Shown here: positions 1 through 25,339 of the stretch, in pieces
Position numbering within the stretch: position 1 is the stretch's first letter
Layout of the letters: each line of letters starts with the position of its first letter
Origin: Actinomycetota bacterium
GTDB taxonomy: Bacteria; Actinomycetota; Thermoleophilia; UBA2241
Direction of reading: 5' to 3'
DNA: 25,758 nt
Assembly (NCBI GenBank): GCA_003157715.1
Contig: PMKK01000132.1
Coordinates: 6,888-32,645, forward strand
Notes under the pieces: generated by a model
What the model was told of the DNA's origin: nothing
The model's database searches: none
The model's input: the letters and a program-made list of their open reading frames with translations, nothing else
Position numbers and translations under genes: made by a program

Positions 1-156
1 GTAGGCGGCGGTCACCGCGATCGTGTCGAGGCTGATGAACGCGGCGATAGTGAAGAAGACGATATCGAAGCGCGTCAGGACTTTACGCATCTTGGTGCGC
101 TCTTTGCCCATCGCGCCGGCGGTCTCGTGAGCCCCGATGCTGCCTTCGCCTGCCAT
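1..156 (-). CDS. APC-family permease, N-terminus only (probable methylamine/amine transporter)
   Basis: Only the first 52 codons lie in the window; the gene runs off the left edge. The start is ATG at 156, with a GGGGG ribosome-binding site (161-167 region) at good spacing. A polar N-terminus of about 27 residues containing KERTKMRKV is followed by the start of a first membrane helix (RFDIVFFTIAAFISLDTIAV). This opening is typical of APC-superfamily amino acid permeases. It follows the corrinoid-protein gene by 73 bp on the same strand and is probably the third gene of the mttB unit. APC-type permeases (MtmP/MttP/MtbP class) accompany methylamine methyltransferase genes in methanogens, so uptake of a methylated amine is the natural inference. 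The substrate cannot be read from the sequence, and a general amino acid transporter remains possible. Confidence 0.72.
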   Translation of the reverse strand, partial: MAGEGSIGAHETAGAMGKERTKMRKVLTRFDIVFFTIAAFISLDTIAVTAAY

Positions 157-229: not shown

Positions 230-871
230 TCATGCCGGCGTCGCCTGGGCGACCAGCGCCCTGGCGCGGTCGACCGCCATGCCGGCGTTGGCGCCGTAGC
301 CGTCGGCGCCGAGCTCGTCGGCGAAGGCCTGCGTGACCGGGGCGCCACCGACCAGCACCTTGACCTGGTCGCGCAGGCCGGCCTCCTTGAGCGCGGCCAG
401 GGTCTCGGCCATGTGCGGCAGGGTGGTCGTGAGCAGGGCGCTCATGCCGACGATGGCCGGCGCGTGCTGCCTGACGGCGGCCACGAACTGTCCGGCCGTG
501 ACCCCGGTGCCCAGGTTGACGACCGCAAAGCCGGCGCCCTGCAGCAGCATGCCGACCAGGTTCTTGCCGATGTCGTGCAGGTCGCCTTCGACCGTGCCCA
601 GCACGACCGTGCCCAGGCCGGCGCCCTCGCCCTCGCCGAGATGCGGCGTCAGGATGTCGAGGGCGCCCTGCATGGTGCGCGCGCTGAGCAGCACCTCGGG
701 GATGAAGCACTCACCGGAGCGCATGCGCGCGCCGACCACCTCCATGCCGGGCAGCAGTGCGTCGTCCAAGATCTCGCGGGCCGGCGTGCCGGCGGCCAGC
801 AGCGCCTGGGTGAGGGCGTTCACCAGGTCGGCGTTGCCGGCGATCAGGGCCTGCGTGAGCTGCTCTTTCAT
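230..871 (-). CDS. mttC: Methylamine corrinoid protein (MttC/MtbC type)
   Basis: A 213-residue methyl carrier that takes the methyl group from the methyltransferase onto Co(I) of a corrinoid and passes it to an acceptor-side transferase in the cytoplasm. The start is ATG at 871 with a GAGGGG Shine-Dalgarno; the frame runs further upstream, but that part lies inside mttB and has no family similarity. Residues 1-85 form the helical cap domain (B12-binding 2 type). The cobalamin Rossmann domain follows, with DLHDIG (D-x-H-x-x-G) near residue 98 supplying the lower-ligand His, then SALLTTT and a VLVGGAPV glycine pair. Length and motifs match MttC/MtbC. It starts 10 bp after the mttB stop, so it is surely co-transcribed. 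It is the only corrinoid protein here and may serve TMA, DMA and the paralogous transferase. Sequence alone does not separate MttC from MtbC. Confidence 0.93.
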   Translation of the reverse strand: MKEQLTQALIAGNADLVNALTQALLAAGTPAREILDDALLPGMEVVGARMRSGECFIPEVLLSARTMQGALDILTPHLGEGEGAGLGTVVLGTVEGDLHDIGKNLVGMLLQGAGFAVVNLGTGVTAGQFVAAVRQHAPAIVGMSALLTTTLPHMAETLAALKEAGLRDQVKVLVGGAPVTQAFADELGADGYGANAGMAVDRARALVAQATPA

Positions 872-881
872 CTGGTTCCCC

Positions 882-2351
882 TCATGCGACGCCGACGAGG
901 CGGTCGGTCTTCTCGACGATGGCGTGGATGCGCGCGGCGATATCGTCCGGAACGGGCTCGGGCCGATACTCCCGCACCACGTCGCGCGCCTTCTCGAGGC
1001 ACGTGACATACAGCTCTTTGGAACCGCGCTCCTGCCACTCCTCGCGCACCCGGCGGTCGAGGAACTCGGGCTGGGAGAGCTCGCGCATGTGACGCAGCGT
1101 GGCGTCGAGCGAGAGAAAGTCGCCGAACGGACCGACCTGGGCGATGTCCTCCACCGCCAGCGTCTCGTCTGTGACCCGGACTCCCGCGACCACGTGCTTG
1201 ATCATGCGCGCGAACTCGTTGTCCATGACGAACTGTCCGCAATCGAAGGTGACGCCCGACTCGATCATGCCCGCACCGTAGATCAGGTTGGCTCCTGCCA
1301 ACGCTGCCATGATGCCGGTGAGGGTCTTCTCGTGGCCGACCTGCGCGTCACCGAGTTTGGCATCCGTCTACAAGCCGGCGACGAAGCTGGGCAGCAGGTA
1401 GCGCCGGGCCATCTGGGCCACGGCGGCGCTGATCATGGCGATCTCGGGCGAGCCGACCGACGCTGCCGCGAGCTTCAGGTCCATGGCCGTCGTGGACGAC
1501 CCGTACATCACCGGGCAGCCGCGCTCGGTGAGCTGCGCCAGGGTGATGCCGGCGAGCACCTCGGCGTTGTGCGTGACGAGAGTCCCGGCCAGGGTCACCG
1601 GCGACGAGCCGCCGGCCATGGCCATCGACAGGATGTTGTCGGGGATCCACCAGCGCGACGACTCGATGATCACCTCGGTGGCATCGCGCGGCAGCTTGAG
1701 CGGGCTCACCGGGCAGACGCCGCTGTACAGGATCGGCCGGCGGCGCAGCTCGTCCTCGCCACCGACGACCTCGGCCGCCATCTGGAAGATCGCCTTGGCC
1801 TCGACGCCCGACAGCGGCCCCACGCCGATCGGCTTGGTCGTGTTGAGAAGCTGTACCTCGGTGTTGTGGACGGCCGCGGTCTCGGGCGGCACGTCTTTGG
1901 CCCCGACGGCGATCTCGTGCGTGTCCATCTCGCTCAGGTAGTCGTTCAAGCGAGCGATGTCGGCGACGTCCTTCTTGGTCGAGTCGCGATACTCACCCGT
2001 CTCCACGTCGATGACGCGGATGCCCTCGCTGAAGTTGGTGAAGGCCACGCGGCCCGGCTCCATCACGAAGTCGTTCTTGGGGTCGCGACCGTACAGGACG
2101 TACCGGCTGGGCGCCGAGCGGACGGCATCCTCGACCACGTGCGGCAGGATCCGCACCATGTGCGTCTCGCGGTCCACGGGGCAGCCGCCGTCGGCGAAGA
2201 TGTCGAGCGCCTCGTCGTCTTCGACGAACACGCCGGCGCGCTCGAGGACTTCGAGGCTGGCGAAGTGGATCTCCTCAAGCTCGGATTCAGTGAACACGTT
2301 GACGCTGAGGCCGCCGCTGCGCGGCCGGCCGGCGAACAGGTTGCGCTTCAC
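882..2351 (-). CDS. mttB: Trimethylamine:corrinoid methyltransferase, pyrrolysine-containing
   Basis: The frame reads as two open stretches (2351-1371 and 1367-882) split by one in-frame TAG at 1370-1368. Both halves belong to the MttB family (COG5598) in the same frame. Read through, the protein has 489 residues with Pyl at 328. This agrees with the length of about 495 and the Pyl near 334 of the Methanosarcina enzyme. The local context is FVAGL-Pyl-TDAKLGDAQVGHEKT, followed by ALAGANLIYGAGMIESG, a typical MttB core. The start is GTG at 2351 with GGAGG nine bases upstream. MttB forms a TIM barrel whose Pyl activates trimethylamine for transfer to the corrinoid protein, giving dimethylamine. 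It heads a unit with mttC and a permease and has its own promoter and palindromic operator. A plain nonsense mutation is unlikely because mtbB has TAG at its own Pyl site. Confidence 0.95.
1368..1370 (-). other. In-frame amber codon read as pyrrolysine in mttB (residue 328)
   Basis: TAG on the minus strand, in frame with both halves of mttB, at the position equivalent to the catalytic pyrrolysine. There is no frame change and no other stop until TGA at 884-882. Decoding needs tRNA-Pyl (CUA) and PylRS, which are not in the window. Confidence 0.92.
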
Positions 2352-2393
2352 ATCGCACCGCCTCCCCGTGAGTGGTAGTAGCCAGTCGTTTAC

Positions 2394-2409
2394 TTAGTTA
2401 CATAACTAA
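2394..2409. promoter_or_regulatory. Palindromic operator upstream of mttB
   Basis: Perfect inverted repeat TTAGTTA-CA-TAACTAA. It lies 10 bp past the proposed -10 of the mttB promoter and about 40 bp before the mttB start. A 20-bp stretch around it (2390-2409) is identical to the stretch at 6090-6109 in front of mtbB. The site is AT-rich in GC-rich surroundings and lies between mttB and the divergent TetR gene. It is inferred to be the TetR binding site, and its position near the transcription start suits repression. Confidence 0.82.
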
Positions 2410-2419
2410 TAGCCATGGT

Positions 2420-2447
2420 ACACTAGCAGACGGTCGGGGGCTGTCAA
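2420..2447 (-). promoter_or_regulatory. Probable promoter of the mttB unit
   Basis: On the minus strand, a perfect -35 TTGACA (2447-2442), a 16-bp spacer and a weaker -10 TAGTGT (2425-2420). Transcription would start near 2413, just before the palindrome. The mtbB unit has the same layout: TTGACA, -10, then palindrome. Confidence 0.55.
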
Positions 2448-2561
2448 GGACCTGCCGGACCGCGGCCCGCGAAGTGGCGTACGCGCGGCCACGTAGATAT
2501 CCTCCACGGGGACTGCATTCGTTGCGCAGACCGCTCCGAGGCAAACGAAGGGAAGCCGGTC

Positions 2562-3194
2562 GTGGCCAGGTACGAGCTACCGATAGAGGACCCGACACCT
2601 CGTCTGGCACCCACCGCGGCGCGCATCCTCGAGGCCGCCAAAAGGGTCCTTGCCCGCGACGGTTTCAGGGCGCTCACCTTCGCCAACATCGCGGACGAAG
2701 CGTCTGAGAACCCCGCGCTCATCCGCTACCATTTCGGCAGCAAGGCCGGCCTCATCACCACGCTCATCGACTCCGTCATGTACCTCGAGAGCCTGGAGCT
2801 CATCGAAGAGCTGGCGAGCGAGCCCCCCGGTGACGAGCGGCGCCGTGCTCTCTTGCGGCTTCACCAGGCCTACGCCAAAGACCTGAGCGGCTACCAGATG
2901 TTCTACGAGCTCGTCCCTCACATCTTGCGCGACGCGGACCTCAGGCCTCATCTGAGCGCGCTCTTCGACTGGTATCGCAAGCTGGACGCCTGGGCCCTGG
3001 GCGCGCGGCCGGCCGACGACCATCCCGATCGCCTCGAGCCGCTCGTGCTGCTCACGGTGGCTATCGCCGACGGCGTCGCCTTGCAGGTCCAGGTAGATCC
3101 GGACCTCGACATCGGCCCCGCCTTCGCGCTCTGGCAGCAACTGGTCCTGACCTACCTCGACGGCAGCGCCGCCGGCTCCGGGCCGGAGACCTAA
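2562..3194 (+). CDS. TetR-family regulator, probable methylamine-regulon repressor
   Basis: A 210-residue protein starting at GTG 2562 behind an AAGGGA Shine-Dalgarno. Residues 14-62 form the TetR DNA-binding domain (helix ILEAAKRVLARDGFRALT, then helix-turn-helix FANIADEASENPALIRYHFGSKAGL). The rest is the helical ligand-binding and dimerisation domain, about 140 residues without recognisable ligand contacts. It is the only clear plus-strand gene here. It diverges from mttB, with a palindromic operator in the gap, and its TAA stop overlaps the TAG stop of the convergent mttB paralogue (3191-3194). The shared palindrome before mttB and mtbB suggests one regulator for both units and probably for itself. 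Effector unknown; a methylamine or corrinoid-pathway metabolite is a guess. Confidence 0.9.
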   Translation: MARYELPIEDPTPRLAPTAARILEAAKRVLARDGFRALTFANIADEASENPALIRYHFGSKAGLITTLIDSVMYLESLELIEELASEPPGDERRRALLRLHQAYAKDLSGYQMFYELVPHILRDADLRPHLSALFDWYRKLDAWALGARPADDHPDRLEPLVLLTVAIADGVALQVQVDPDLDIGPAFALWQQLVLTYLDGSAAGSGPET

Positions 3195-4660
3195 GCCCTC
3201 AGTTCGGCGTCCGCGGCGGCGACGATCCGCCGCAGCTCCTCCGCCCTGTCCTGGGCGAGCGGCGCCGGAACGTAGTTATCGAGTATGTCCACGCCGCGCT
3301 CGCGGGCCACTTCGACCGGGTCGCGGTAGTGGGTGCCGTCGGGGCCGATCTCCTGCCCGATCGAGCGCTCGACCGTGTCCTTCATGTGCCGGCGCGTGTG
3401 CGGCTGGCCGAGAAAGTGCCCGCCGGGCCCGACCGCGTCGATGACGTCGAGCGCCAGCGTCTCCTCGTCTACGTCCACGTCTTTAAAGGCGTTGGCGGCG
3501 CGGTGGTAGAGGTCGTCGTCGAGCATCATGTGCTCGGGGGTGAACAGTTGGTAGCGATTGGTGAGCCCGATCGTCGTCATGAGCTCCGAGCCGACCAGAC
3601 CCGCCATCATCAGCGTGTGCGCCGTCTCGGCCGCGGCCAGCCACGTTCCCGGCAAGTCGTCGTCCGTGCCCGCGTACCCGCTCATCGCCGGCAGACCGAA
3701 GTGATGCACGAGCTCCGTGGGAAGAAAGAGGCCGCGATGGTTGAGCGGAGCCGTGACCAGCGCCGCGGTGCGGGGATCGGCGTGCACCGGCAGGGGAAAG
3801 AGGATCACCGGCGCGCCCGGGCAGGCGAGCTGGATGAGCACGGTGGCGCTGATGAGCTCGGCGAAGCCGAGCACGTAGGCACCGGCCTTCGTGGCGGGCG
3901 CCGTGGTCCCAAAGGTCGGCATGGTCACAAAGCACACCGGGATGCCGGCCTCGGCAAACACGAGAGCCGCCTCGACCCCGTCCTTGTCGTTTACGAGCGG
4001 CTGAACGGTGCCGATCAGGTCGCTCATCGGCGGGCGCCGGCGGAGCTCCCGCGGCCCGCCGGCGATGACCGTGGCCATCTCGACGGCGAACCGCGCCTCG
4101 CGCTCGCCCTGCACCATCCCCTGGAGGTGCTTGGTGGTGTTGCCCCAGCCTGCCTCAAGCTCGTGGAGCGTGTGCGTGTCGCCGCAATCCGCGGCGGCGA
4201 CGTTCGGCCACCAGAACTGCAGCGAGCCGAGATAGTCGACCATGCGCGTGATGGCCGCAAGGTCGGCTTTGGTCGGCTGCCGGCGCAGGCCGTCGTGCCA
4301 GTCGACGACCTCGGTGCCGCAGCCGTTCGTGGTGTTGTAGGTATCGCCGCCGGCGAGATCGAGGTCGCGATCTCCGTCGCGCGAGCCCAGCCAGAAGTCG
4401 CGAGGCGCGCTGGCGAGAGCGCGCATGACCAAGTCGGGCGCCAGGCGCACGACCCCGGAGCCGCGATCCACTCGAGCACCATGCTCCTCGAGGATGGCGA
4501 GCGCCTTCGGTGAGGCGAAGCGCACACCGGTACGCTCGAGCACCTGCAACACCGCGTCCTTGTAACGGTCGAGACGTTCACGGTCGTAGAAGGTCACTTT
4601 GAAATCCGAGCGCAGCGGCAGCAGCGGCTGAGGCCGGCTGAGGTCGAGTCGGGAGCTCAT
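3191..4660 (-). CDS. MttB-family methyltransferase lacking pyrrolysine (paralogue)
   Basis: A 489-residue MttB superfamily (COG5598) protein. The start is ATG at 4660, whose ATGA overlaps the mtbB stop, so translation is coupled; a longer frame start at 4699 lies inside mtbB. The region equivalent to the Pyl site reads GLPAMSGYAGTDDDLPG. By the TD-x-x-L register, Gly331 replaces Pyl. Pyl-less relatives that have been studied (MtgB and similar demethylases) act on glycine betaine, carnitine, proline betaine and related quaternary amines by transfer to a corrinoid protein. Which substrate this one uses cannot be told. Placement in the DMA unit suggests it supplies di- or trimethylamine precursors or handles another methylated amine with the shared carrier. 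The stop is TAG, and a second in-frame TAG follows 12 codons later. Confidence 0.9.
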   Translation of the reverse strand: MSSRLDLSRPQPLLPLRSDFKVTFYDRERLDRYKDAVLQVLERTGVRFASPKALAILEEHGARVDRGSGVVRLAPDLVMRALASAPRDFWLGSRDGDRDLDLAGGDTYNTTNGCGTEVVDWHDGLRRQPTKADLAAITRMVDYLGSLQFWWPNVAAADCGDTHTLHELEAGWGNTTKHLQGMVQGEREARFAVEMATVIAGGPRELRRRPPMSDLIGTVQPLVNDKDGVEAALVFAEAGIPVCFVTMPTFGTTAPATKAGAYVLGFAELISATVLIQLACPGAPVILFPLPVHADPRTAALVTAPLNHRGLFLPTELVHHFGLPAMSGYAGTDDDLPGTWLAAAETAHTLMMAGLVGSELMTTIGLTNRYQLFTPEHMMLDDDLYHRAANAFKDVDVDEETLALDVIDAVGPGGHFLGQPHTRRHMKDTVERSIGQEIGPDGTHYRDPVEVARERGVDILDNYVPAPLAQDRAEELRRIVAAADAELRA

Positions 4661-6057
4661 AGCGTCGCTGCGGTCAGGGCGGTGTGGCGTTTGAAGCACT
4701 CCACGGAGTTCACCGGGACGTTGAGCGTGTCGGCGATGTGGAACTTGGCCTCGATGGCGCCGGGCTGGTCGGGATAGGTGAGATCCTGTACCTGAATCCG
4801 GCCGAGGCCGAAGTCACGGCGCAGGTCATGCATGGCAACGGTATCGCTGAGGTCCCGCACCGAGCAGCCGAGCCTCTCGGCGACGTAGCGCTTGGCCTGC
4901 GGAAGGCGCATGCCTCGGGTGATCTGCATGCGGGCTACCAGATCTCCGGCAGTCCGCATTCCGCCCATCCCCGAGGCGAGCGCGTGCGTGGAGGCCATCC
5001 CCAAGGGATCCCCCACGCCTACCTACAAGCCATCCAGCTTGAGGATGTCGACCAGCGCGCGCGAGGCGCGCGACGTGGCGTCACCCGGCGGGTAGGGCGT
5101 CATCGGTACCCCGCCGACGCCCATGCCGGCGTTCATGTGCACCGGGATGGTCGCCTCGGCCGTCACCGGCTTCACGAGCGCGCAGGCGCGAGCCGTGTTC
5201 CAGGCCAGCGACCTGGTCGTGTTCACGTTGACCGCCGGGCCGAAGATCGTGGCGCCGGCCGCGGTGACGGCGCGCAGCTGCTCGAGCGGCCACATGCCGG
5301 CGAGCCTTCTGCCCTGGTACTCGAGCTGGCCGTGCATGCCGAGCACGAGCTCGCCGGCTTGCCCGACCTCGACGCCGATATCGGGCCAGCGGTCCCGGAT
5401 CTGCCTCACCACCCGAAGCGTAGCCAGCAGATCGGCGTCGCCGGCCGCGCCGGCGGTATCGAAGTCCAGACCGTCGGCGCCGGCCGCGATCATGGTCTCG
5501 GCGACGAGCAGCATGTCGTGCTCGAGCAGGCCGGCGGCGTCTTCCTGGGCACGGCGCGCCTCTTCGATCTTGCCCATGGGCAGGAGCTGCGACCAGTTCT
5601 CTACCGGGCCATCGGGACGCGAGTAGCGGCCGAGGTCGGGCATCGCCCCGTAGTTCAGGGGGACCACCGTCTGCAACTGGGCTTCTTTCATCATCTGAGC
5701 CTGGAACGAGAGGACGGTGCGAACGGCCTTATAGGAGTAGTCGTGATGCCAGAGCTCGATCGAGTCGGCGCCGTGATGGTTCTGGTAGAGGACCTGCTCG
5801 GTGACCGGGAAGCCGACGTCGCCGTTGCCGGCGCCGTCGAAGCTCAGGACGACCTCGTCGCCATAGTCGACGGCGCTGAACTTGGACGGAGAGGTGAAGA
5901 TGTCCAGGAGGTGGGCGATCTCATCGGAGCTGAGCGGAGCCACCTTCGCGCGCCGGATGGCGGCCTCGACGCCCTCGTGCAGGTCTGCCTCGATCTCGCC
6001 TCTGGTCATCTCGACCAGAGAGCCGTCTCCGAGACGTGTCGGGATGCGCTGCCCCAT
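4657..6057 (-). CDS. mtbB: Dimethylamine:corrinoid methyltransferase, pyrrolysine-containing
   Basis: One frame broken only by TAG at 5025-5023. Read through it gives 466 residues with Pyl at 345, matching Methanosarcina MtbB (about 467 residues, Pyl near 356). The context is LKLDGL-Pyl-VGVGDPLGMASTHALASGMGG, characteristic of the family. The upstream part has the MtbB opening (LGDGSLVEMTRGEIEADL) and GADGLDFDTAGAAGD. The start is taken as ATG 6057 because a GGGGG site precedes it. ATG 6090, 11 codons upstream, touches the operator palindrome and has no ribosome-binding site. The enzyme demethylates dimethylamine to monomethylamine, passing the methyl to a corrinoid protein, here probably the product at 230-871 because no MtbC lies beside it. 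It overlaps the next gene by 4 bp (ATGA). No monomethylamine enzyme (MtmB) is in the window. Confidence 0.95.
5023..5025 (-). other. In-frame amber codon read as pyrrolysine in mtbB (residue 345)
   Basis: TAG on the minus strand between codons for GL and VGVGDPLG, exactly the family Pyl position. The frame stays open for 121 more codons to a TGA that overlaps the next start. Confidence 0.92.
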
Positions 6058-6093
6058 GGTACCCCCGGTCCCCGTTCGGTGGAATGCCATTAC

Positions 6094-6109
6094 TTAGTTA
6101 CATAACTAA
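6094..6109. promoter_or_regulatory. Palindromic operator upstream of mtbB
   Basis: Second exact copy of TTAGTTA-CA-TAACTAA, 12 bp past the -10 of the mtbB promoter and 36 bp before the chosen mtbB start. It is identical over 20 bp to the copy at 2390-2409. The spacing to the promoter is nearly the same at both sites, which argues for a functional operator and not chance. Confidence 0.82.
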
Positions 6110-6121
6110 CTTGCCCACGGC

Positions 6122-6151
6122 ACGATATCCGGACCTGCGCGAACGTGTCAA
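6122..6151 (-). promoter_or_regulatory. Probable promoter of the mtbB unit
   Basis: On the minus strand, -35 TTGACA (6151-6146), an 18-bp spacer and -10 TATCGT (6127-6122). The predicted start of transcription falls at about 6115, just before the palindrome. Confidence 0.6.
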
Positions 6152-21269: not shown

Positions 21270-24200
21270 TCACGGGCTGCCGACCTCGGTCGGCGTATCC
21301 CTCTCGATAGTGTCGCCGAGGCCGAGTTCGCCGTCTTCGTTCCAGCCCCAGGCCCAGAGGGTGCCGTCTGTCTTGAGCGCCAGGGTGTGGTAGCCGCCTG
21401 CCGAGACGGTGCCCCAGTCGCTGTCGCTGCCGACCTCGGTCGGCGTCGACCTTTCAGTGGTGTCGCCCAGGCCGAGCTGTCCCTCGGGGTTGTAGCCCCA
21501 GGCCCAGAGGGTGCCGTCTGTCTTGAGCGCCAGGGTGTGGTCGTCGCCTGCCGAGACGGCGGCCCAGTCGCTGGCGCTGCCGACCTGGGTCGGGACGTCC
21601 CTGTCGGTGGTATTACCGAGGCCGAGCTCTCCGTAGCAGTTCTTGCCCCAGGCCCAGAGGGCGCCATCGGTCTTGAGCGCCAGGGTGTCGGCGCCGTCTG
21701 TCGAGACCGCGGCCCAGTCACTAGCGCTGCCGACCTCGGTCGGCGTCAACCGGTCACCACCACCGCCCAGGCCGAGATCTCCGCCATAGTTTTGACCCCA
21801 GGCCCAGAGGGTGCCGTCTGTCTTGAGCGCCAGGGTGTCGCCGCCGCCCGCCGAGACGGTGGCCCAGTTGCTGGCGCTGCCGACCTGGGTCGGCGCCGAT
21901 CTGTCGGTGAGGTCGCCCAAGCCGAGTTGTCCGCCGACGTTTTGGCCCCAGGCCCAGAGGGTGCCGTCGGTCTTGAGCGCCAGGGTGTCGGCGCCGTCTG
22001 TCGAGACGGTGGCCCAGTCGCTGGCGCTGCCGACCTGGGTCGGCGTCGACCTGTCAGTGGTGTCGCCCAGTCCAAGCTCTCCGTAGTGGTTCAAGCCCCA
22101 GGCCCAGAGGGTGCCGTCGGTCTTGAGCGCCAGGGTGTGGTAGCCGCCTGCCGAGACGGTCGTCCAGTCGCCGCTGCCGGGCGTCGATGTCGGCGTGGGC
22201 GTCGGTGAGGGACTAGCGGTCGGTGTCGGCATCGGCGGCGGCGTCGAGCCGCTCGGCGCCTGAGCGAAGAGGTGATCGTAGAAGGTCTTTGAGCAGCTCC
22301 AGTCGGCGATCGTATGGCTGAGGATCTGCATCTTGAAGCCGACTGCGCCCTCAAGACCGCCGTGCAGCATCCACCAGGGCGTGGCCGCGCTATCGGCTGA
22401 GAACTCGCCGTAGCCGTCGACGCCGACGTAGGGACCGGCGACGTCGCAGATTGACACGCCCACCTGGGGTCCGATCGAGGCCTTCAGGTCGGCCGTGCCG
22501 TAAAGCGTCGGCGGGCTGCAACTAGCCGAGAACCCGGGCGAGCAGACCGGCGAGAAGCTGCCGTTGGCATACTGCGCCCCGATCGTAAAGGAGGCGATCT
22601 GATCGACGCTGGTGGCCACCCCGACGGCGAAGTCGCCGTGCGCGGCGAGCACCAGTTCGAGGTCGATCACCACCGGCACGCCGGCGACGCTGGTCGGCAC
22701 CTTGGCGAGGGGCAGGTCGACCTCCTGGTCATGCTGCCAGCCGGCCGAGGCAGTGCAGGTCAGCGTGCTGTGCTCGGTTGCCACCGAGGCGACGTAGGCG
22801 CTGTTAAGACCGAGGTGCCAGTTCACACTGGCGTCGAGGTCGACGCGCTCGGCCAACGTTACCGAGCCCTTGACGGCGAGACCGCCGAAGTCGTGATCAA
22901 GGGCCAGCGTGAAACTCGGCAGCGAGATCGAGCCTTTCGAGCCGCGTGGCCCGTGTCCGCGACCGGTGGCCACGAGATGGACTCCGGGGGCGAGGCGGGC
23001 GCGGGCGAGGTCGGCGCCGGTGATCTGTTGGGAGAGCGAGAGGTCAAGCGACTGGAAGGCCTGGTCGAGGGCGGCCTGGGTCGTGGTCACGGTGGTGACG
23101 CCGCCGCTGGTACTCACGTCGGTGACCTTGCGCAGCAGGCCATCGGGGGCGGCCGCGCAGGGCTCGATCAGCAGGATCTTGCCGACCGCCACGCCGGCGG
23201 GGGCAGTGCCCGAGAAGCTGAGAGTCATCTGATCGGCGGAGACGGCCGTGAGTGCGGCCGTGCCGGCGCCCTGAAGGGCCGTCGTCGCCGGGGCGAGCAC
23301 GCGAACGCCGGAAGGCGCGCAGGCGAGTCGCAGACTGGCAGAGGCGAGGCTCGCCTGCCAGCAGCGGCCGGCTCTGTAACCCGTAGAGGCAGCAAGCAGG
23401 GCGGTGAGGTTGACGGCGTGGCCCTTGCCGGCCAGCACGAGCAGGTCGCCGGCGCCGTCGCTGTTGAGATCGCTGCAGGCGAGCTGAGCTACGGGCCCTG
23501 CGAGCTTGCCCGACCAGGCGCGGCGGGCGGCGAAGGTGTGTTTGGTCTGCGTGAAGCGGGTGAGTGTGGCCTTCGAGGCCGAGGTCGGCCTGAGCAGGAA
23601 GGCGGCGCCCTTGGCACTGCCGGCAAGGGGGCCGGCGGCGAGACGCGCAGCGGCGCTCGCCGCGCCCTGCCAGCGTAGAGCGAGGGTAAGCCGCGCACCT
23701 GAAGAGGTCAGGCCGTAGAGGTGGCCCTTGTTGCCGCTGCGGGTGAGGATGACCAAATCTGTCTTGCCGTCACCGTTGAGATCGGCGGCGGCCAGCTGGG
23801 CGCCTTTGACGGTGAACGAAGCCTTGCGTGTCTGCCAGAGGATGTGGCGGCTGGCGGCGGAGGCGGTGAAGGAGAAACCGAGGACCTGCGCGCCGTGTCG
23901 GCCCAGGGGAGCAAGCACGAGCAGCTCGTCGTGACCGTCGCCGTTTGTGTCGGCAGCGACAAGGTGGGAGACGGGCACGGAAAGACCCGCCTTGGCGGCA
24001 TGCCAGACGGTACTGGGGGCATAGCTGCCGTCAGGTTGCGCGCTGAAGAGGTCGAGGCGCGCGCCGCTCTTGCCGACCAATGAGAGCAGGGCTGCTGCGG
24101 CCGCGCCACCGTCGAAGCTGCCGACGCCAAACTGGGACCCGGAGGCAAGCGCACCACTCCAGACGCCGGTCGAGGTCAGGGCGGCAGCGCTGCCGCTGAG

Positions 24201-24371
24201 CTGCAGAAGCTGGCCCTTGGTAGCCGAAGTGTGGCGCAGTAGGAAGCTCGAGCTGCTGGTCGGGGTGGCCGCTGCGGCGCGAGTCGTCGCGAGGGCGCAA
24301 GAGAAGATAAGGACCAAAGCGACAGCGCCCAGCAGCGCCCAAGCTCGGCGCGGACCCATCCTTGCGTTCAC
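21270..24371 (-). CDS. Secreted FG-GAP / RCC1-repeat protein
   Basis: A 1033-residue protein. GTG 24371 is preferred because GGGGGG lies about seven bases upstream; ATG 24359 is an alternative. The signal peptide contains [26 protein letters not shown]. Residues about 50-350 have FG-GAP/VCBS-like blades with Ca-binding loops DTNGDGHDE (from about 141), DLNGDGKTD and DLNSDGAGD. Residues about 370-700 form a large beta-rich region I cannot name. A Pro/Thr/Ser linker ([20 protein letters not shown]) leads to six RCC1/ATS1-type repeats of exactly 50 residues (consensus [26 protein letters not shown]..GQLGLGD), which end the protein. It is exported and probably cell-surface associated; adhesion or ligand binding is likely, no catalytic motif was seen. 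Seven blades would be expected of a closed RCC1 propeller. Confidence 0.88.
21277..22176 (-). repeat. Six tandem 150-bp repeats encoding RCC1 units
   Basis: The conserved GGCCCAGAGG segment recurs at 21351, 21501, 21651, 21801, 21951 and 22101, an exact 150-bp period with high nucleotide identity between units. Variation is concentrated in the codons between WAWG and LGLG and in the loop after the Ser-Asp. It looks recently amplified and prone to unequal recombination. Confidence 0.92.
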
Positions 24372-24781
24372 TGGATACCCCCCGGCAGACGGTGAAGCGA
24401 CCCCGGCGTCTGGCTCCACGATTCAGAGAAGACGCCCTGCCTGACTTTACTCCTATCGAACGACGGTACGCGAACCTGCAGCTCGTCCTCGTCGGCGGGG
24501 TCTGGCGGGCAGGAGCCGCTAACCGAAACGAGACAGGCCGGCGCAATCACGCAACGCCAGACTCCGGCACTGCCAACGCATGGAAGAACGCGCAGCCGCT
24601 GGTAGCCGCGCACGTGCAGGTCAGCAACGGCAAGCAAGAGCTTGCGGCCCGTCCGGACCTCGGGCGGAACGCGCTTCATACGCGATCTCTCATGGCGAGT
24701 TCTGCATCCCGCGGCGTCATGTCCGACTTATCGTGAACCCGCCGTCGGATATCGCTCTTTCGGAGACCGCGGCACGCGTTG
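24372..24781. other. 410-bp intergenic region, no gene recognised
   Basis: Overlapping short frames on both strands lack start signals and recognisable composition. The left part should carry the promoter and leader of the FG-GAP/RCC1 gene. No clear promoter hexamers, RNA gene or terminator hairpin was identified. Confidence 0.4.
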
Positions 24782-25339
24782 TCATTCCCTCGACTTGGTC
24801 AAGTCGAGTTGCCATCGAGTGGACAGCATCTTCTCGCGAGTAAAGGGGATCTCGCCACTGAAGAGAATGCCGCCCTTCGCCTTGCGGAGGATGAATTCGA
24901 GATCGGTCGAGCCCGCTTCGAGAAGCTTGGCTACCTGCGCCGCGTTCTCGAGACGGGCGTATGCATCGACCATCTGTGATGGCCGCACCGAGATCGTGTC
25001 CGGCTCGGAGCGCCCTTGCGCATCGAGCAGCAGCTGGTACTTGCCCGAGACGTTCGGCGCGCCACCATCAACCCCCTCGGGCAGCCAGAAGACGCAGTCA
25101 CCCCTGCCCATGATCGTCACGATCGACTTCCCCGGATTCGACAAGCTGAGTGCCACCAAGGGGACCGATGCTGGGGCAGGCTTGTGGTCGCCGCCGAGAA
25201 GCGCCGGCAGGCTACCGCCGAGGGCGAAGAACACCGCCGCCGTGGTGACGCCGATCAAGCCCGACAGGGCGCCGACAAACGAGTACTTGCTAGGCAGCGA
25301 CCATGAATCCCACTGCTGCTTCGAAGGCCAGAAGCGCAT
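24782..25339 (-). CDS. Single-pass membrane protein of unknown function
   Basis: A 185-residue protein from ATG 25339, with GGGAGG three bases upstream. A short polar N-terminus rich in Trp/Ser (PSKQQWDSWSLPSKYS) precedes one membrane helix (about 19-42, FVGALSGLIGVTTAAVFFALGGSL). The remaining 140 residues form a mixed alpha/beta exterior or cytosolic domain with no motif I know: VPLVALSLSNPGKSIVTIMG, then a helical part (MVDAYARLENAAQVAKLLEAG). It starts 30 bp after the end of the truncated ATPase-like frame, so the two may once have formed an operon. No function proposed. Confidence 0.75.
   Translation of the reverse strand: MRFWPSKQQWDSWSLPSKYSFVGALSGLIGVTTAAVFFALGGSLPALLGGDHKPAPASVPLVALSLSNPGKSIVTIMGRGDCVFWLPEGVDGGAPNVSGKYQLLLDAQGRSEPDTISVRPSQMVDAYARLENAAQVAKLLEAGSTDLEFILRKAKGGILFSGEIPFTREKMLSTRWQLDLTKSRE

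Follow-up and report, generated by a model that had tools for sequence, protein, structure and literature searches.

A TetR-type protein as the predicted local repressor of two pyrrolysine-dependent methylamine methyltransferase units in an actinobacterium

The locus and its twin sites

The window analyzed here is a stretch of 25,758 nucleotides from an Actinomycetota bacterium (contig PMKK01000132.1, positions 6,888 to 32,645). Near its start, a gene for a TetR-type regulator (tetR) lies between two units, mttB-mttC-permease and mtbB-mttB', that encode predicted methylamine methyltransferases, and an identical 20-mer precedes each unit. Comparison with related genomes suggests that the protein encoded at 2562-3194 is the local repressor of both units and acts through these two matching sites, a reading to which we assign a probability of about 0.83. 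The sites, the promoter elements, their conservation, the co-occurrence with the TetR protein and the gene order were computed. The features of the locus are as follows.

1..156, minus strand: N-terminal part of the "permease" (the name given in the initial annotation), cut by the window edge; 83% identity to L001:7399-7557 (L001 being the closest relative found)
230..871, minus strand: mttC, corrinoid protein, from two B12-binding domains (both Pfam domains above cut-off); named by position
882..2351, minus strand: mttB, trimethylamine methyltransferase; in-frame TAG as pyrrolysine at residue 328; TIGR02369 693.7 bits against 525
2390..2409, minus strand: putative operator 1, read along the gene as TTAGTTA-TGTAAC-TAAGTAA; upstream of the mttB start by 38 bp and of the tetR start by 152 bp
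2420..2425, minus strand: predicted mttB promoter, -10-like TAGTGT; missed by a generic scan
2442..2447, minus strand: predicted mttB promoter, -35 TTGACA; TTGACA present at 12 of 12 sites across relatives and window
2562..3194, plus strand: tetR, 210 residues, the predicted regulator of both units; PF00440 score 41.4 bits (cut-off 24)
3191..4660, minus strand: mttB', of the MttB superfamily, with no internal in-frame TAG; 4-bp overlap with the mtbB stop
4657..6057, minus strand: mtbB, dimethylamine methyltransferase with an in-frame TAG; TIGR02368 420.2 bits against 369.1 (scanned from 6090)
6090..6109, minus strand: putative operator 2, the same 20-mer as operator 1; 32 bp before the likely mtbB start
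6122..6127, minus strand: predicted mtbB promoter, -10-like TATCGT; from the generic scan
6146..6151, minus strand: predicted mtbB promoter, -35 TTGACA; from comparison with relatives and the generic scan

The initial annotation described an identical 20-bp sequence present exactly twice, at 2390-2409 and 6090-6109, and our search of the window agreed. The 16-bp core (TTAGTTACATAACTAA, at 2394-2409 and 6094-6109) had no other match in the window at up to three mismatches, none of 100 shuffles contained any match to it, and about 2e-10 exact copies of the 20-mer would be expected from the base composition (67% G+C). Twelve perfect 7-2-7 palindromes were found in the window; the ten besides the twin sites all fall within 21279-24806 and have a higher G+C content. 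A long gene with RCC1 and FG-GAP repeats occupies 21270-24419, and its DNA contains repeated copies of the palindrome GCCGACCTCGGTCGGC or of a form one base off.

The arrangement was also as annotated: tetR, on the plus strand, lies between both units and diverges from mttB, and each copy of the 20-mer lies 10 to 12 bp downstream of a TTGACA-type promoter (10 bp at site 1 and 12 bp at site 2). The two minus-strand promoters are laid out as TTGACA-16-TAGTGT and TTGACA-18-TATCGT, respectively. A generic promoter scan of the first 7 kb of the window recovered the mtbB promoter only, with 0.5 matches expected by chance. At all 12 sites, the operator is preceded by a TTGACA whose first base lies 32-45 bp upstream, and the -10-like hexamers that follow this element include TAGTGT, TACTCT and TATCGT. 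The putative operators are near the expected transcription starts, a position that fits repression.

Conservation of sites, regulator and gene order

Sites and TetR orthologues were surveyed in relatives of the window organism, namely 15 genomes in the family of G001, the 3.5-Mb genome that contains L001. L001, the closest relative found, comes from a metagenome-assembled Actinomycetota labeled bog_752; its TetR protein shares 83% identity with that of the window, and its DNA is 86% identical over 6.2 kb. TetR orthologues (66-83% identity) were found in five of the 15 genomes (G001, G005, G007, G008 and G009); elsewhere in the family, the best match reached 52% identity. The site, at up to one mismatch, occurs in all five genomes with an orthologue and in none of the ten others (p = 3e-4). 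At up to three mismatches, each genome with an orthologue has exactly two matches to the 20-bp pattern, 10 in all, and G001 has exactly two to the 16-mer, positioned as in the window; the site is thus not scattered. A single two-mismatch match to the 16-mer in G003, on C291, was rejected: it is unlinked, and the best TetR match in that genome has no more than 52% identity.

The setting of the sites is conserved as well. In all five genomes, tetR runs convergently with mttB' and divergently from mttB or mtbB-mttB; one copy of the site lies between tetR and this divergent gene or operon, and the other lies before mtbB. The control of both units by this TetR protein, as predicted in the initial annotation, is therefore supported by the sequence comparison, with two sites per genome kept beside orthologous genes. 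Considering that no site was found at other loci of the five genomes, the predicted regulon consists of these two units. Between the window and L001, the operators hold while the flanking DNA drifts: site 1 is identical at 20 of 20 positions inside a block of 82% mean column identity, and site 2 at 18 of 20 inside a block of 74%. At L062, L063 and L194 (in G005, G009 and G007, respectively), another mtbB-like gene (56-59% identity) points away from the operator-2 region in the opposite direction, and site 2 may therefore serve two directions there.

The register of the operator was counted over 11 sites that were aligned on an intact TTAGTTA as first arm; the twelfth, the second copy in G008, reads TTGGTTA-N6-TAACTAA and was outside the count. 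Mismatches in the second arm summed to 5 with a spacer of 6 and to 10 with a spacer of 2; the remaining spacers between 0 and 12 each gave 37 or more. The element conserved overall is TTAGTTA-N6-TAACTAA. The 7-2-7 palindrome of the initial annotation is real, and the sites of the window and G001 fit it better than a 7-6-7 form, but it does not apply to the sites at large. It is perfect at five of the 11 (twice in the window, twice in G001 and at site 1 of G009); the window sites have TAAGTAA as second arm, and their inner bases make up the rest of the 7-2-7 palindrome. The overlapping of both registers at some sites may leave room for two staggered dimers, in the manner of QacR.

Class-wide background was taken from 399 genomes, a sample from a larger group in which at most seven TetR candidates were scored per genome. 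Ten of them, all from the family of G001, have a TetR match with an E-value of 1e-50 or lower. TTAGTTA-N6-TAACTAA occurred at up to one mismatch in 17 genomes, comprising 5 of 5 with an orthologue and 12 of 394 without (p = 7.5e-8, a value that overstates independence because the five orthologue genomes are relatives). Perfect copies of TTAGTTAGGCGCCTAACTAA were found at G045:C15:2192-2211 and G060:C12:21220-21239, in two genomes without the TetR orthologue, where the sequence is perhaps the operator of another regulator.

Methyltransferase genes and the relatives of the TetR protein

The TetR_N helix-turn-helix of the window protein scored above the curated cut-off, which places the protein in the TetR/AcrR family, and tetR has no in-frame TAG. 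The product of mttC fell below the cut-offs of the named corrinoid types (TIGR02370, pyl_corrinoid, 188.9 against 215.3). For mtbB, the ATG at 6055-6057, which is common with relatives, is a more likely start than 6090; numbered from 6090, the in-frame TAG is residue 356. The 4-bp overlap between mttB' and the mtbB stop indicates that mtbB-mttB' is probably an operon. The protein encoded by mttB' passed the MTTB Pfam domain but not the trimethylamine-specific model, and its best solved-structure match was a glycine betaine methyltransferase (7.5e-47), with a trimethylamine methyltransferase at 1.5e-41. The gene terminates with TAG (3191-3193) in a lineage that seemingly decodes TAG as pyrrolysine; since the ends of the relatives' mttB' genes align within a residue or two, this TAG is probably a true stop. 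PylS was found above cut-off in 14 of the 15 family genomes, and a search of the window for tRNA genes found none. The MttB family (PF06253) has 20 to 40 matches in each of the 15 family genomes, many of those listed having one in-frame TAG, which is a very large expansion in one actinobacterial family.

The wider kin of the TetR protein were taken as all matches with E of 6e-22 or lower in the 15 family genomes (n = 79). As controls, we used 42 TetR genes from the top of the PF00440 list, after removal of the 79 kin, of G002:C99 (contig end) and of G001:C130:641 (beside a kin gene). An MttB or MtbB gene lies within 3 kb of 24 of the 79 kin and of 2 of the 42 controls (p = 6e-4), these counts being lower bounds as contig ends shorten some stretches. 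All of the 12 best TetR matches lie within this distance of such a gene (p = 3e-10, with the cut at 12 chosen after seeing the result). The other kin neighbors that were sampled were three class-III aminotransferases, three carbamoyltransferases and one gene of histone-deacetylase fold. Two of the three aminotransferases were scored further and came close to the putrescine aminotransferase model, one of them narrowly above its cut-off and the other below; one of the three carbamoyltransferases, also scored further, was over the cut-off of the ornithine model and under that of the putrescine model. The labels of the remaining kin were assigned by similarity to these sampled genes. On a tree of 78 TetR sequences (two of 80, shorter than 170 residues, were dropped, and 28 ungrouped rows were outside the label test), the labels cluster strongly, with 4 changes against 22.2 in shuffles, and neither the MttB-linked nor the carbamoyltransferase-linked proteins are confined to a single clade.

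The recognition helix ENPALIRYHFGSK is identical in the window protein and the five orthologues and different in the other kin listed. Palindromes were also sought among the kin, a dyad search taking in 46 of the 79 loci. TTGTCCGTCCGGACGGACAA, at up to three mismatches, was found in 8 of the 79 kin loci, which form exactly an eight-row subclade of the carbamoyltransferase clade, and the helix ESKASIGYHFGNK occurs in five of the seven listed proteins of this subclade. At these loci (L076, L077, L078, L079, L083, L093, L104 and L117), an ornithine/putrescine-type carbamoyltransferase gene adjoins, in some cases with a gene of histone-deacetylase fold. Exact copies of GTTATCC-N4-GGATAAC occur in L067 and L068 and a copy with two mismatches in L071, whereas L070 has none within three. 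GTTCGGT-N6-ACCGAAC is exact upstream of the TetR kin in L087 and L091, beside a putrescine aminotransferase-like gene, and is absent from most other loci of the aminotransferase clade. The MttB-linked loci L064, L065, L069, L070, L071 and L115 do not have the window operator within three mismatches; an imperfect dyad of similar form is common to L070 and L115. Many of the 46 loci searched have only G+C-rich dyads, possibly by chance, or none. The presence of a palindrome of their own in some kin groups supports the pairing of TetR protein and palindrome, although helix and palindrome are not strictly coupled among the kin.

Judging from the genes that adjoin the kin, an amine is in general a plausible ligand, and the occurrence of related TetR proteins beside MttB or polyamine/ornithine-type genes suggests a family of amine sensors, a looser result than that for the window locus. 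It is conceivable, at somewhat less than even odds, that a family of amine-sensing repressors radiated within a single methylotrophic actinobacterial family, with this TetR protein as one of the branches. These branches would have taken different operators and different amine pathways, namely demethylation of trimethylamine (TMA) and dimethylamine (DMA) more than once, putrescine transamination, and an ornithine- or putrescine-type carbamoyltransferase. If so, several amine switches could run side by side in one cell. The kin, whose helices and in some cases palindromes differ from those of the window, offer a natural experiment on the evolution of TetR specificity.

The proposed circuit, its signal and known systems

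The circuit that we infer from sequence comprises binding, repression, a ligand and any autoregulation of tetR. One or more TetR dimers would bind TTAGTTA-N6-TAACTAA just downstream of the -10 elements of two TTGACA-type promoters and thereby block transcription of mttB-mttC-permease and mtbB-mttB'. An amine inducer, either a methylated amine or a breakdown product, would be expected to release the protein.

Several observations weigh against this circuit. A similar sequence is present in the 12 class genomes without an orthologue, and a reversed control pattern matches 7 of the 399 class genomes and, as the 20-bp pattern at up to three mismatches, once in G009. The second site in G007 and G008 is on a different contig from tetR, and site 2 of G001 departs from the 7-6-7 register at two positions of its second arm. 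The helix ENKASIRYHFGNK is common to L067, L068, L070 and L071, yet their palindrome is not always present. G005 has no PylS above cut-off, possibly owing to incompleteness. The -10 element of mttB is poor by the Escherichia coli consensus and the generic scan did no better than chance, and the promoter case therefore rests on conservation in relatives.

Two of these points, the similar sequence within one mismatch in 12 of 394 class genomes and the imperfect coupling of helix and palindrome among the kin, would also be expected if the site belonged to another regulator and tetR were a neighbor by chance or bound elsewhere. This is improbable in view of the co-occurrence in 5 of 5 genomes, in each of which one site adjoins tetR; moreover, TetR proteins usually bind palindromic sites, and the shape of the element is the usual one. 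The identity of the two window copies might instead mean that the repeat does not bind a protein but is a recent duplication, a remnant of a mobile element or an RNA element. However, the copies in G005, G007, G008 and G009 differ in their six central bases while the outer arms stay, and the sites keep their place after TTGACA, which makes such an origin very improbable.

A more serious contender, though still the less favored one, accepts the sites as operators of this TetR protein but takes the signal to be another amine or a later catabolite instead of a methylamine. Some of the kin adjoin putrescine aminotransferase-like or ornithine/putrescine-type carbamoyltransferase genes, and TmaR, the master regulator of aerobic TMA breakdown in a marine bacterium, is reported to respond to a later product and to no methylamine (PMC13390433). 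The same paper describes a repressor, TmoR, that does recognize DMA, and the restriction of the site to the mttB and mtbB units in five genomes fits a dedicated methylamine switch.

Structural comparison gives some hints on the ligand. The predicted model of the window protein (predicted local distance difference test score, pLDDT, 80) has the all-helical two-domain TetR fold. Its near-tied best fold matches include QacR, solved with cationic drugs, and a TetR protein solved with choline and trimethylamine. The latter type of complex is known for a TetR protein of Saccharomonospora viridis, with structures containing choline (4kwa) and N,N-dimethylmethanamine, i.e., trimethylamine (4nel); a literature search on choline- and trimethylamine-bound structures found nothing relevant among the papers listed. 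Two candidate pocket residues, H101 and D142, are conserved across the six orthologues and in six related MttB-linked proteins, and almost every aminotransferase or carbamoyltransferase row compared has other residues there. As a general mark of methylamine regulators these residues were ruled out, an MttB-linked clade of seven having Leu/Met and Lys instead. BetI is a choline-binding TetR repressor tied to methylated-amine metabolism. The window protein matched TIGR03384 weakly over residues 21-92, with 27.2 bits against a cut-off of 201.3, and is therefore not a BetI.

The predicted repression of both units by this TetR protein concerns a lineage of ecological relevance, related to peat-bog strains. 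At Stordalen Mire, Bog-752 and two other genera were named as the most actively methylotrophic, and some Actinobacteriota express pyrrolysine-type mttB and mtbB (PMC10805028). Judging from the matching name, the label bog_752 of L001 presumably denotes the genus Bog-752. Bacterial control of pyrrolysine-dependent methylamine use seems little described, and searches combining TetR with pyrrolysine or methylamine found no TetR regulator of such genes in the open-licence literature, which they covered in part. By mechanism, the circuit would be ordinary TetR repression on an unusual target. The prediction is precise and quick to test, with one protein and two 20-bp sites, and the circuit might serve as a methylamine reporter.

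In comparison with known local repressors of the TetR/AcrR type, the proposed mechanism is classic, whereas the target genes here encode pyrrolysine-dependent methylamine methyltransferases. A TetR gene with an in-frame UAG has been reported in Methanosarcina acetivorans (PMC3639795); this is a different matter, given that tetR of the window has no such codon. TmaR and TmoR of Ruegeria pomeroyi, the latter of the GntR type, are likewise bacterial regulators of TMA breakdown, but theirs is an aerobic oxidation pathway, and the available part of the report names no TetR protein (PMC13390433). Control of MttB (COG5598) by sigma-54 in Clostridia is likewise regulation of an MttB-family gene in bacteria; the promoters predicted there are of the sigma-54 type (PMC12316311), whereas those in the window are TTGACA-type.

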